Shown here in pieces: positions 35,722 through 45,917 of a stretch of 64,000 nt of DNA. A program made the position numbers and the translations under genes. The DNA is taken from positions 62,001-126,000 of the forward strand of contig REDI01000047.1 in the NCBI GenBank assembly GCA_007693595.1, read 5' to 3'. The stretch's first letter is position 1; each line of letters begins with the position of its first letter. The stretch comes from Deltaproteobacteria bacterium. GTDB taxonomy: Bacteria; Myxococcota_A; UBA796; GCA-2862545. Below the pieces are notes generated by a model. That model was given only the letters and a program-made list of their open reading frames with translations, ran no database searches and was not told where the DNA came from.

Positions 35722-35836
35722 GGGCGCTCCGAGGCCAGCCCCCAAGAGATGGCAGGATGGTCCTAGACACCAGCTACGGTTACGCCTTGTGGGTCCGAGA
35801 CCCCCACGACCCTTATGAGCGATGGAGCCGCCTGGC

Positions 35837-37435
35837 ATGCCCAGACCCCAGATCACGGCCGAGACCCTCCATGTCGACGATCTCGTCTCGAAGGCGCTGC
35901 GGGGTCGGATCAGGGTACCACGCTTCCAGCGTGGGCTGCGCTGGCGCGACACCGATGTGCGGCAGCTCTTCGACAGCATTCATCGAGGCTTCCCAATCGG
36001 TACCCTGCTCATGTGGAAGCGCTCCGCCAAGTCCGCGACCCTGCAGTTCGGCCCGGTCGAGGTCCACGCGCCCTCCGACGAGGAGGCGTGGTGGGTGGTC
36101 GACGGCCAGCAGCGCTTGACGAGCCTGGTCGCCGGCCTATGCCACCCTCGCATCGCCGATACAGACGACCCCTTCGTGGTCTACTTCGATCTTGAGGACC
36201 ACGAGGGTAGCGACCCCTTCTTCCGGCCCAACCGTCTGCGCCCGGTCACGCCCTACAGTCTGCCCCTCGCGGTCTGCTATGACTCCGTCGCCTTCCAAGA
36301 GTGGCTGTTCGACTTTGTCCAGAGAACTGGAGACAAGGATCGAATCGCCCAAGCGAGCGCCGTCCAGGCTCGGCTCCGCAACTATCGGGTTCCGGTCTAT
36401 GTCGTAGAGACCGAAGACTTCGACGTCGCGCGTCAGATCTTCTTGCGGGTCAATCGAGCGGGTCGACGGATCGAGGCTCACGAGGTCTTCGCCGCGTTGG
36501 CGCCTCAGGCTGCTCAGCAGGATCTACGCCCCGAGTCCATCGCGGGTCGCTTCCAAGAGCGGTTCGGCGACATCGAGCCGAACGTGGTCGCTAAGGCGGC
36601 CAAGGCCCTCGTCTCGGACGAGGTCACCCGGAGCGATCTTCACCCGAACCCGCCGAACCACGAGGCATGGATGCAGGATACCGAGCGGGCCTTGTGTGCT
36701 GCCGTCGACTTCCTACGGAGCTGCGGGATGTCCCATGCTCGGCTCCTTCCGTCGGTGCCCACCCCCCTCGTCACCCTGACCCGCTTCTTCCACCGGCATC
36801 CCGAACCCCATGAGCGAAACCGGCGGCTGCTCCAGCGCTGGCTGTGGCGTGGTTTCTTCGCAGACGCGCTGGGCTCCGACGCCAAGACCTTGCGGCGGTC
36901 CGTGGTCGCGGTGGGTGACGACGAGAGCCACTCGGTGCAAGAGCTCCTGTCGAAGGTCCCTAAGAAGGCCTCCCCTGTTTGGCCCAAGCGCTTCGACGCG
37001 CGACACGGCATGGCGCGGCTCGCCGCCATGCTGATGGCGCTCGAGGAGCCCTTTCCCCCGGAGCCCATGATCTCGCGCTCCGATGACGAGGCCCATTCCC
37101 ACAGCGACGTCTTCGGCTGGCTGCAGGCTCATGGGGCGCACGTCTTCTGCCGGCTTCCGGGCGCCAGCAACAGCCCGGCGGCGCGCTTCCTGGTCCCAGG
37201 AACCAGCGCGGCTCGGCTTCGGGATCAGCTCCTCACCTGGGCGGAGTTGGATCTGGAGCATCCTGGGCTGCGCTCCCACCTCGTCTCACCCGAGGCCGCC
37301 CAAGCGCTCCTCGACGGCGATCCCGCCGGATGCGTCGCCTACCGCGCTGAGACTCTCTCGACCATCGCGGAGAAGTGGTACCTCGCCCGTGCCGAGCCGG
37401 ATCACTCCGATCGCCCGCCCCTGGACCTCTCATGA
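35837..37435 (+). CDS. DUF262 (GmrSD/ParB-like) domain protein
   Basis: This 532-residue protein has an N-terminal DUF262 region, with VPRFQRGLRWRDTDVRQLFDSI and VDGQQRLTSLVAGL at about residues 88-101. DUF262 is found in the type IV restriction enzyme GmrSD and in phosphorothioation-linked defence proteins, where it acts with nucleotides or DNA. The C-terminal 250 residues do not show a clear DUF1524 HNH site, although SHLVSPEAAQALL and an Asn-containing ASNSPAARFLV sit where that domain would be. The ATG at 35837 has GGAG nine bases before it; an ATG at 35822 is an alternative. The stop overlaps the start of a HipA-like gene (ATGA), so the pair is translationally coupled. Confidence 0.8.
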   Translation: MPRPQITAETLHVDDLVSKALRGRIRVPRFQRGLRWRDTDVRQLFDSIHRGFPIGTLLMWKRSAKSATLQFGPVEVHAPSDEEAWWVVDGQQRLTSLVAGLCHPRIADTDDPFVVYFDLEDHEGSDPFFRPNRLRPVTPYSLPLAVCYDSVAFQEWLFDFVQRTGDKDRIAQASAVQARLRNYRVPVYVVETEDFDVARQIFLRVNRAGRRIEAHEVFAALAPQAAQQDLRPESIAGRFQERFGDIEPNVVAKAAKALVSDEVTRSDLHPNPPNHEAWMQDTERALCAAVDFLRSCGMSHARLLPSVPTPLVTLTRFFHRHPEPHERNRRLLQRWLWRGFFADALGSDAKTLRRSVVAVGDDESHSVQELLSKVPKKASPVWPKRFDARHGMARLAAMLMALEEPFPPEPMISRSDDEAHSHSDVFGWLQAHGAHVFCRLPGASNSPAARFLVPGTSAARLRDQLLTWAELDLEHPGLRSHLVSPEAAQALLDGDPAGCVAYRAETLSTIAEKWYLARAEPDHSDRPPLDLS

Positions 37436-38628
37436 GCGGCCGCGCGCTGCGCGTGAGCGTCGGGGGGCAGTTGGTGGGGCACCTCTGGTACGACGGGCGG
37501 CGGTCGACCTTTCAGCTTCATGAGTCCTACCTCGACGCCCCGCGACGCCAAGTGCTGGGGCAGCACTTCGAAGACCGACTCCATCGCGTTGCCAGGAGCT
37601 GCAAGGGCTTCTATCCCTGGTTCGAGAACGCGCTCCCCGAGCGAGGGGGGGCGCTGCGACGACTCGTGTCCCGTGACCTGGACATGTCCGACGACGACAG
37701 CTTTGAGCTCCTCGAGAAGCTGGGTCGTGATCTTCCGGGGGCGGTCGAGATTGTCGGTGATGTCTCTATGGACGCCCCAAGGCCCCACGTCACGGAGCCG
37801 GAGCTGGGGTCCTTGAACACGCATCGGTTCTCGCTCGGCGGGTACCAGCTCAAGTTCTCGCTCTCTGGCACCCCCGACCGGCTGACCTTCGAACATCGCG
37901 ACGCGCGAGGCTCATCCTGGATCGCGAAGGTGGGTACCGAAGCCTTCCCAGGGCTTGCCGAGAACGAGCACGCCATTTTGTCATGGTGCCGTGCGGCTCG
38001 CTTCGACGTGCCCGAGACCCACGTGGTACCGCTTGAGAGCTTGCCGCTTTCCGGTTCGCTGCCCCGGGTCCCCACCGCCTTTTTGATCCGTCGCTACGAT
38101 CGCGTACAGGGTCGAAGGGTCCATCAAGAAGACTTCGCGCAAGTACTCAACGTACCTCCAGCGCGCAAGTACGACGCGACCGACAGCGCCGGCCTCGTCA
38201 AGCTGGCTCATCAAGTTCTGGGTCCTTCGGGCGCCGAGGAGGCGCTACGCCGGCTCGTGGTCGTCTTGGCGACGGGCAACGGCGACGCCCACCTCAAGAA
38301 CTGGTCTCTGACCTATCCCGACGGCCAGAACCCGACGTGGTCGCCCCTGTACGATCAGGTGGCGACCGTCGCCTTTCCCTCGGTCTCGAAGACGCTCGCC
38401 CTGCGGATCGGCTCGGCGAAACACCTCCACGAAGTGAGCGTAGACCATCTGCATTGGGTCGCCTCCAAGGTCGGGATCGGCGCTCCTCGGTGCGACGAGC
38501 TGGTCGAGGAGACGCTGGGACGCTTGCGCAGCACCTTCCCTGAGATCGGCATGCCGCACGCTCTAGAGGACCTGCTGCCCGCCCACTGGTCGAGGGTACC
38601 CTTGCTGCGAGCGCATGGGCTTCGTTGA
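37432..38628 (+). CDS. HipA-like serine/threonine kinase
   Basis: This 398-residue protein covers the full HipA plan: an N-terminal couple-type domain (RVSVGGQLVGHLWYDG ... PWFENALPERGGALR), the regulatory loop FSLGGYQLKFSL, and a kinase core. The core has GNGDAHLKNWSL at residues 282-293 (catalytic Asp285 and Asn290 in HipA numbering logic) and the metal-binding Asp of LYDQVATVAF. All key residues look intact, so an active kinase is expected; HipA phosphorylates tRNA synthetases to stop growth. No HipB-type HTH antitoxin gene is adjacent. Instead its start overlaps the DUF262 gene, so the partner may be that protein. Confidence 0.85.
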   Translation: MSGRALRVSVGGQLVGHLWYDGRRSTFQLHESYLDAPRRQVLGQHFEDRLHRVARSCKGFYPWFENALPERGGALRRLVSRDLDMSDDDSFELLEKLGRDLPGAVEIVGDVSMDAPRPHVTEPELGSLNTHRFSLGGYQLKFSLSGTPDRLTFEHRDARGSSWIAKVGTEAFPGLAENEHAILSWCRAARFDVPETHVVPLESLPLSGSLPRVPTAFLIRRYDRVQGRRVHQEDFAQVLNVPPARKYDATDSAGLVKLAHQVLGPSGAEEALRRLVVVLATGNGDAHLKNWSLTYPDGQNPTWSPLYDQVATVAFPSVSKTLALRIGSAKHLHEVSVDHLHWVASKVGIGAPRCDELVEETLGRLRSTFPEIGMPHALEDLLPAHWSRVPLLRAHGLR

Positions 38629-44111: not shown

Positions 44112-45917
44112 CTAGAGGTCGCGCTTGGGCGGGTCTGCTGGGCTTGGTGGGGCGGGCGCGGCCGGCGTGGTCGGAGCGTCGTCCGCGGAGGGCTCGCCGG
44201 ACGGGGTCTCCGCCTCGTTGGGAGGGGGCTCGGGTTCGAAGAGGTCGGTCCGGCCGGTGCTCGGACTCGGCTCTTCCCGCTCGATCGTCCGCTTTTCGAG
44301 GGCGCGCCGTGCGGCGAGGGCAGGATCGGGACGGGTCGATCGGCCGCCGAGCTGGGCTCGGAGCGCGGCGGCACGTTGCAGCACATCGTCGGTGGAGCGG
44401 GGGCCTGCGGCGGCCTCGGCCTGGATGCGGGCCAGCCGATCCGCACCGCTCTCGAGGCCGCGATCGGGGGTGGGCTGACGGCGGTCCTCGGCGGCCTGCA
44501 TGAGACGTCGTGCCGCCGCGAGGGGATCGGCCTCGGCGCGGCGCTGGCCTTCGGCGTAGGCTTCGTCGGCCATCGCGCGGATCCGGGCGAGCTCGGCGAC
44601 CCGGTCGAAGCCTTCGGGCTTGGCGCCAGCGCTCACCCGAGCCTGCCTTGCGCGGGCGAGGGCGGCTTCGGCGGGGGGGAGGTGGGCGAAGGGGTCCGGC
44701 TCAAGCGGACCCGTCTCGCCGCGGGCCTGCCTTGCGCGAGCGAGGGCGGCTTCGGCAGGAGGGAGGTGGCTGAACGCGTCGGGTGTCGGATCACCCACCC
44801 CTCGAGCTCTGCGCGCCCGTGCGATGGCCGCCTCGGCGGGGGGAAGGTGGCTGAACTCGTCCTGTTCTGGTGTGTCGGGTTCGCCGCGGGCCTGTCTCGC
44901 GCGGGCGAGGGCCGCCTCGGCGGGGTCGAGGTCGGCGAAGGGGTCGTCTTGGGGTGTGTCGGGTTCGCCGCGGGCCTGTCTCGCGCGGGCGAGGGCCGCC
45001 TCGGCGGGGTCGAGGTCGGCGAAGGGGTCGTCTTGGGGTGTGTCGGGTTCGCCGCGGGCCTGTCTCGCGCGGGCGAGGGCCGCCTCGGCGGGGTCGAGGT
45101 CGGCGAAGGGGTCGTCTTGGGGTGTGTCGGGTTCGCCGCGGGCCTGTCTCGCGCGGGCGAGGGCCGCCTCGGCGGGGTCGAGGTCGGCGAAGGGGTCGTC
45201 TTGGGGTGTGTCGGGTTCGCCGCGGGCCTGTCTCGCGCGGGCGAGGGCCGCCTCGGCGGGGTCGAGGTCGGCTGCGGGGGGAGGCTCATCGAGCTCGGTC
45301 CCGTCGGGGTCGGCCGCGGGCTCGGTCGGGTCGGCTCGAGCGTCTTCTGCTTCCTCGCGAGCGCCTTCGTCGAAGGCGGTGGCCCGGGCCGCTGCGGCTC
45401 GGGCGAGGGCCTCGCTGGCCGCGTCGAGTCCACCGCTGCCGGATCGGGCGGAGCGCATCGCCTCGAGCTGGGCGCGTGCGGAGGCGCGGCGCTCCTCGGC
45501 CTCGGCCTCGCGCTGAGCCCGGGCCTCTTCGTCTTCGGTGTCGTCGTCGCTCGTGGAGGAGGGCCCGACGCCTGCGCGCTGAAAGGCCTGCTCTCCCGCC
45601 TCGGTCAGCCCGGCTGCCCACTCGGGCTCTTCGCCTTCGGTGACCGGGAGGCCACTCGCGGCGCGGCGCGCCTCGGCTTCGCGCGCGCGGGCCGTGATCC
45701 GAGCCTCGGCGTCGCCGAGCGCGCCATCGAGCGCTTGCTTCGCCCGCTCGCTCGCCTGTCCCACGGCGGCGCGCGCCCCGGTCGTGACCCCGTCGACCAG
45801 GCGGCGACCGGCCTCGCGCGCGGCGGCCTCGCCGATCTTTCGCCCGAGCTCGTCGGTCAAGCCACCGCCTTGGGTGTCGGTCTTCTCGCTTGGTCCCTTC
45901 GTCTCATCCTTGGACAT
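44112..45917 (-). CDS. Acidic/alanine-rich protein with 28-residue tandem repeats
   Basis: This 601-residue soluble protein has no signal peptide. Residues 1-210 are helical and charged (KIGEAAAREAGRRLVDGVTTG). The centre holds eight copies of a roughly 28-residue unit built on PAEAALARARQARGEPDT, with five near-identical copies followed by three that have drifted (HLPPAEAA...). The C-terminus is Pro/Glu/Asp-rich. The repeats look like alternating helix and loop, perhaps forming a long stalk or interaction platform. Codon use in the repeats is biased, as expected for a recent expansion. It overlaps the acetyltransferase gene by 14 bases upstream. Function unknown. Confidence 0.8.
   Translation of the reverse strand: MSKDETKGPSEKTDTQGGGLTDELGRKIGEAAAREAGRRLVDGVTTGARAAVGQASERAKQALDGALGDAEARITARAREAEARRAASGLPVTEGEEPEWAAGLTEAGEQAFQRAGVGPSSTSDDDTEDEEARAQREAEAEERRASARAQLEAMRSARSGSGGLDAASEALARAAAARATAFDEGAREEAEDARADPTEPAADPDGTELDEPPPAADLDPAEAALARARQARGEPDTPQDDPFADLDPAEAALARARQARGEPDTPQDDPFADLDPAEAALARARQARGEPDTPQDDPFADLDPAEAALARARQARGEPDTPQDDPFADLDPAEAALARARQARGEPDTPEQDEFSHLPPAEAAIARARRARGVGDPTPDAFSHLPPAEAALARARQARGETGPLEPDPFAHLPPAEAALARARQARVSAGAKPEGFDRVAELARIRAMADEAYAEGQRRAEADPLAAARRLMQAAEDRRQPTPDRGLESGADRLARIQAEAAAGPRSTDDVLQRAAALRAQLGGRSTRPDPALAARRALEKRTIEREEPSPSTGRTDLFEPEPPPNEAETPSGEPSADDAPTTPAAPAPPSPADPPKRDL
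44637..45269 (-). repeat. 84-bp tandem repeat array, eight units
   Basis: Five units (44850-45269) repeat with an exact 84-base period and are nearly identical; three more (44637-44849) are diverged and one is 81 bases. All stay in frame in the protein at 44112-45917. Identical units at DNA level suggest recent expansion by slippage or recombination. Confidence 0.95.

Follow-up and report, generated by a model that had tools for sequence, protein, structure and literature searches.

A DUF262 protein without the HNH-type motif occupies the antitoxin position beside a HipA kinase in a conserved gene pair

The window analysed here, a stretch of 64,000 nucleotides from contig REDI01000047.1 of a Deltaproteobacteria bacterium (GTDB phylum Myxococcota_A), carries two overlapping genes that encode a DUF262 protein (P0001) and a HipA kinase (P0002). 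The features of this locus are:

35837..37435, + strand: DUF262 (GmrSD_N, ParB/Srx-like) protein P0001, 532 aa (PF03235; full-length match to PDC-M55C)
36101..36115, + strand: DGQQR motif, P0001 residues 89-93, the DUF262 nucleotide-binding/hydrolysis motif (read from the sequence)
36503..37432, + strand: C-terminal helical half of P0001, residues 223-532, in which the HNH-type HHIxP motif is absent (Pfam, motif count)
37432..37435, + strand: ATGA overlap, with the HipA start inside the DUF262 stop (read from the sequence)
37432..38628, + strand: HipA kinase P0002, 398 aa, N-terminal subdomain and core kinase (PF07804, PF13657)
38275..38301, + strand: HipA catalytic loop GNGDAHLKN (read from the sequence)
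38350..38355, + strand: Mg-binding YD of LYDQVAT in HipA (read from the sequence; Y307 and D308)

The coordinates, the ATGA overlap and the motifs VDGQQRLTS, GNGDAHLKN and LYDQVAT given in a preliminary description of this locus are all present in the sequence as claimed there, and its remark that no HipB lies beside the kinase is borne out, as Pfam found no HTH or HipB gene in ten flanking frames on both strands. An alternative ATG start of P0001 is possible at 35822, 15 bases upstream. The layout is hipBA-like, in that the partner gene lies upstream of the kinase, overlaps it and is transcribed in the same direction. Upstream of the pair are sucA (assigned by reading of the frame and matched in relatives), sucB and a zinc-type dehydrogenase gene (adh), while downstream an ORF without a Pfam match is followed by an ABC-F gene. 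Scans for promoters, terminators and repeats around the pair gave nothing beyond shuffled sequence. In the source genome P0002 is the only HipA_C match, and profile A1 for DUF262 likewise has a single match (E 0.001).

The kinase is a full-length HipA. Pfam assigns it HipA_C (PF07804, 1.6e-41) together with Couple_hipA, the HipA N-terminal domain (PF13657, 3.6e-17), phmmer leads from it to HipT and HipA structures, and the top matches of its AlphaFold2 model are the HipA structures 4pu5, 4pu4 and 3dnt. The catalytic motif N.D.H.KN is kept in all 40 paired kinases that we compared, Y307 and D308 are invariant in the 16-row alignment A2, and the serine preceding the Gly-rich loop is a serine in 32 of the 40.

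Residues 14-220 of P0001 constitute a GmrSD_N/DUF262 domain (Pfam PF03235, E 1.8e-26), and the protein matches the PADLOC model PDC-M55C (PDLC04709) over 504 residues (8-511; E 7.8e-62). Weak PADLOC matches were obtained to PD-T4-2_A and to NsnA (we take the Nsn models to be those of Menshen), a PHROGs search returned only families of unknown function, and phmmer led to BrxU. Pfam listed no match at E up to 1 to the DUF1524/HNH nuclease domain (PF07510) in P0001, and no HTH. The same combination of a kept nucleotide motif and a missing nuclease motif runs through the relatives that are linked to a HipA: DGQQR is present in 44 of 44 such proteins, and HHIxP in none of them. In M55C-type proteins the two motifs occur in 4 and 0 of 14, respectively, and in distant DUF262 proteins in 58 and 56 of 60, the 58 being a product of how the search was constructed. 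Since the scan of named genomes itself searched for DGQQR, the counts for named-genome loci are biased, whereas the 29 rows from the window's phylum are free of that bias.

The AlphaFold2 model of P0001 (pLDDT 87.1) has BrxU as its best match (Foldseek 4.2e-10), with SspE next. The superposition on BrxU reaches a Z of 15.7 over 455 residues with an rmsd of 13.3, meaning that the domains match and that their relative placement differs. In this predicted model the C-terminal half aligns by fold to BrxU and to the CTD of SspE. Given this match despite the missing HNH motif, the C-terminal half may be a dead relative, or relic, of a nuclease domain.

Relatives of P0001 at E 1e-10 or better were found in 46 of 377 genomes of the window's phylum. 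In 60 fetched neighbourhoods, the frames were screened with profiles that we had built up from P0001 and P0002; six weak P0001 matches (G244, G063:C665, G074, G241, G085:C32 and G158) were left out, and the DUF262 tree of 63 rows omits a DUF262 fragment of 259 aa in L046. A HipA gene lies directly downstream on the same strand in 29 of the 33 rows of one DUF262 clade (support 90), the window included, and in none of the 29 informative rows among the 30 outside it. The four clade rows without a scored HipA are L033 (at a contig end), L043, L047 and L087 (short); among the 29 rows with HipA, that of L045 runs off the contig. The HipA label changes 3 times on the tree, compared with a mean of 21 when shuffled. 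In many pairs the two genes overlap by exactly four bases, and in the others they overlap or nearly touch. L043 and L047 are DUF262 genes of the clade or its edge that have no HipA; upstream of the L047 gene there is a PDC-M55A-like gene.

The other 28 pairs of the phylum come from 23 genomes, so that, judged by the loci found, the pair is present in 24 of 377. The nearest relative of the window pair belongs to another family of the phylum (54% and 50% identical), and 4 of 4 family relatives with the sucA-sucB-adh run have no such pair behind adh. The patchy distribution, these empty sites and the nearest relative in another family speak for an accessory, movable character of the pair.

The co-occurrence in other genomes that the preliminary description had proposed as a check was also found outside this phylum. 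Among 80 loci from named genomes, HipA is directly downstream in 15 of the 17 closest and in 0 of the 63 more distant ones, some of which are cut by contig ends; the split between 17 and 63 corresponds to a drop in matched length (>320 residues against <260). The 15 pairs, one of which (L108) has a HipA interrupted by a stop, belong to six phyla, namely Acidobacteriota, Actinomycetota, Thermomicrobiota, Pseudomonadota, Planctomycetota and Myxococcota. The actinobacterial L097 and L101 have a DUF262 gene without HipA or any HipA remnant and, together with L043 and L047, they indicate that the sensor can stand alone. None of 17 viral-contig loci carried the pair, all of them being distant DUF262 genes, and none of 56 plasmid records covered 80% of P0001.

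The same position upstream of the kinase can be held by HipB. In a contrast set of the best-scored 30 PF07804 loci of the phylum, a choice that favours HipB-linked kinases and was inspected over about 1.5 kb of flank, 27 had a small XRE-like frame directly upstream and none had DUF262. A tree of 70 kinases places every one of the 40 DUF262-linked HipAs in a group of 41 (support 99), apart from E. coli HipA. A profile search for this HipA branch gave 30 loci, of which 22 had DUF262 upstream and 5 had a HipB-like gene in the same place (the HipB frames were judged by eye, and for L217 the HTH part rests on that of L215, a near relative); the remaining ones were a truncated orphan (L260) and two loci cut by contig ends. 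DUF262 and HipB therefore exclude one another as upstream partner in this branch, and this either-or choice between HipB and DUF262 within one kinase branch is the best indication that DUF262 takes over the function of HipB. Four HipB-linked kinases (L250, L251, L252 and L258) nest in the DUF262-linked group (support 95/83), and on these tree positions they are best read as a partner exchange in one lineage. A separate origin of these four kinases was also considered and is not established, as a single DUF262-linked clade was not rejected (AU p 0.386).

The two genes also show correlated histories. For 40 DUF262-HipA pairs the paired trees gave a Pearson correlation of 0.76, a value reached in 0 of 2000 permutations; this comparison and the HipA trees omit L036, L045, L072 and L108, in which HipA is broken or cut. 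The correlation means that the genes travel together, by descent or by transfer, and it could also reflect plain vertical inheritance. In the damaged pairs HipA is broken and DUF262 open, by a frameshift in L036, a truncation in L072 (first ~50 residues) and a stop in L108, in a tally that looked for damage on the HipA side. A harmful HipA next to a harmless DUF262 protein would leave this pattern. Decay does not always take this course, as shown by L260, a HipA fragment without a partner. The stop in L108 (7671-8933, Frankia sp. AiPa1) is a single in-frame one near the border between the N-subdomain and the core kinase. In hipBST, HipS and HipT are split at this border, and the L108 stop may be decay or a real split.

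The closest DUF262 relatives of the HipA-linked clade are PDC-M55C proteins, which form neighbouring clades in the tree and share common descent with it. Many DUF262 genes of these clades lie in three-gene ATPase-B-DUF262 operons (L090, L085, L086, L059, L063, L056, L091 and others), and most of the DUF262 proteins in such M55-like operons lack DGQQR. L090, the operon tested in full, matched PDC-M55A (AAA ATPase, 3e-42), PDC-M55B (3.4e-16) and PDC-M55C (4.5e-68); A-like genes related to these were counted in 13 loci, B-like ones in 10. Beside the window pair, whose neighbours are the dehydrogenase gene and ORFs without a Pfam match, PDC-M55 A and B genes are absent, and of the 28 HipA-linked loci fetched a single one had M55A-like genes close by. 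In that locus, L084 (G024:C53, 4352-13643), less than 2 kb separates a DUF262-HipA pair from a set of three PDC-M55-like genes, with the M55A-like gene adjoining a second DUF262 gene; two systems with a common DUF262 component are thus neighbours there. No third conserved gene of the module was found. Upstream genes considered as possible parts, a fatty-acid desaturase in L040 and L045 and RuvB in L036, are unrelated to each other or to M55B.

A location in defence islands, which the preliminary description had also suggested checking, is not what the neighbourhoods show, with L084 as the one clear exception. We compared 123 neighbours on 14 module contigs, a set that does not contain L084, the one locus with an M55-like system, with 123 control genes at a PADLOC threshold of E 1e-20; the controls were drawn at random from 139 genes that lie in 15-kb stretches of the same contigs, at a distance of about 20 kb or more. 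Among the commonest 25 of 37 and 27 families, there was no defence enrichment beyond models of the Ser/Thr-kinase type, with 4 neighbour proteins against 1 control. The 115 neighbours in named genomes matched 5 PADLOC models with one protein each, again without defence enrichment, and by Pfam they were mostly metabolic, with two transposase families of two proteins each and one McrBC.

Several known systems resemble parts of this arrangement. Like hipBA of E. coli and S. oneidensis, the pair has a full-length HipA as second gene, an overlapping upstream partner, and the same fold and catalytic motifs, but its partner is a 532-aa DUF262 protein rather than a small HTH protein, and E. coli HipA belongs to another clade. 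P0001 resembles component C of PDC-M55, a candidate defence system in PADLOC (A, an ATPase; B; C, DUF262), over almost its whole length, whereas A and B are absent beside HipA-linked DUF262 genes and the M55C-type proteins seldom carry DGQQR; PDC-M55 is not named in the literature searched. The type IV restriction proteins BrxU, SspE and GmrSD share the DUF262 fold with DGQQR, and differ in that here the HNH nuclease motif is missing and a separate kinase gene is present instead. HipA-homologous kinases with exchanged partners are described by Gerdes et al. 2021 (PMC8262856), whose text names ten gene organisations with partners that include HipS, HIRAN, Stl-like and resolvase-like proteins, from a survey that kept kinases with an adjacent and in general DNA-binding putative antitoxin; the text searched contains no DUF262 partner. 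According to PMC10952713, Menshen, Dazbog and PD-T4-2 are defence systems in which a DUF262 protein without the DUF1524 nuclease domain stands next to another effector, which is not a HipA kinase and in Menshen is a predicted OLD nuclease. Similarly, PMC11980606 describes ptuXYZ, where a nuclease-less DUF262 protein shares an operon with a toxin, although there with an ATPase and a BECR-fold RNase and here with HipA. For SspE, PMC13251355 reports that recognition of phosphorothioate DNA leads to GTP hydrolysis through the DGQQR arginine, which licenses the HNH nuclease; DUF262 is presented as a sensor coupled to an effector through NTP hydrolysis (PMC13251355, PMC10952713). We found no description of the DUF262-HipA pair in the openly available article texts searched.

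The explanation we lean towards, with moderate confidence, is that the two genes form one module in which a nuclease-less, NTP-driven DUF262 sensor in the antitoxin's place controls a HipA toxin. We infer such a sensor-antitoxin and kinase toxin because P0001 is the same kind of sensor as the SspE- and Menshen-type DUF262 proteins, coupled here to HipA. In SspE and BrxU, an NTP step is coupled to the recognition of DNA with particular modifications and licenses the C-terminal HNH nuclease. The DUF262 protein, which takes HipB's gene position, would also take its role, by binding HipA during co-translation and holding the kinase idle. The ParB/Srx-like N-terminal domain with its DGQQR motif would bind and hydrolyse NTP and, as the nuclease motif is missing, the signal would be passed to HipA in place of the nuclease, so that HipA would be released or activated. 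Known HipA and HipT kinases phosphorylate translation factors such as aminoacyl-tRNA synthetase, and the target of P0002 in the cell would probably be a translation factor of this type, whose phosphorylation would arrest growth.

A more specific version, which we offer tentatively, would make the module a new class of abortive-infection system: the modified-DNA-sensing NTPase known from type IV restriction would have shed its nuclease and would license HipA in trans, with DUF262 doubling as the antitoxin. A role in phage defence is plausible, although most neighbours are not defence genes, and the putative benefit could extend to other invading DNA. Of the defence or toxin-antitoxin module envisaged in the preliminary description, the conserved two-gene unit without HipB and with DUF262 in the antitoxin position has stood, but a context of defence genes has not. 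Two findings that it named as counting against it, a lack of synteny in other genomes and an overlooked HipB-like gene, did not turn up.

A plain toxin-antitoxin pair, in which DUF262 would have replaced HipB and would merely sequester HipA, serving stability or stress tolerance with no sensing of foreign DNA, is rather unlikely in our estimation. DUF262 does stand where HipB stands, the pair is a loner among housekeeping genes, and broken HipA genes lie beside open DUF262 genes; yet a mere inhibitor needs no NTPase site, and DGQQR is kept in 44 of 44, also in the 29 of 29 phylum rows, whose selection did not involve the motif. Moreover, as Pfam detects no HTH in P0001, autoregulation would need another route.

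It is improbable that the roles are reversed and HipA phosphorylates and regulates DUF262 as the real effector. None of the 44 HipA-linked DUF262 proteins has the HNH-type motif, and the remaining kinases of the HipA branch in question are linked to HipB, even though DUF262 members without HipA exist (L043, L047, L097 and L101), the P0001 model has a BrxU-like overall fold and ParB/Srx-fold proteins may, according to PMC4619093, have nuclease activity of their own. We give still less credence to a housekeeping signalling pair that is neither toxin nor defence; the metabolic surroundings (sucA, sucB and adh) would suit it, but the distribution across the phylum is patchy, the 4 relatives with the same run lack the pair after adh, and the nearest relative is in another family. 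Chance adjacency is refuted by the conserved synteny in several phyla, the correlated paired trees and the retention of the motifs.

For HipA, the founding persistence kinase, it is still not clear which natural signal releases it from its partner. The pair is an exchanged-partner HipA module whose new element is the DUF262 partner, and it suggests an apparently undescribed way to restrain and switch on a HipA-type kinase. If a DUF262 sensor controls HipA as we favour, the partner in this HipA branch would be a sensor that depends on nucleotides and not a repressor that binds DNA, which would supply a concrete candidate trigger (NTP state or modified DNA), and the DUF262 sensor of type IV restriction would be combinable with an effector other than a nuclease. 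Surveys of HipA that require a neighbouring, generally DNA-binding antitoxin would tend to miss the DUF262-linked family. Were the abortive-infection version true, the recognition of foreign or wrongly modified DNA would be linked to growth arrest by a protein kinase. Elsewhere in the window, 44112-45917 on the - strand encodes a protein in which a tandem repeat (DLDPAEAALARARQARGEPDTPQDDPFA) recurs about five times in near-identical form, besides further copies that have diverged.
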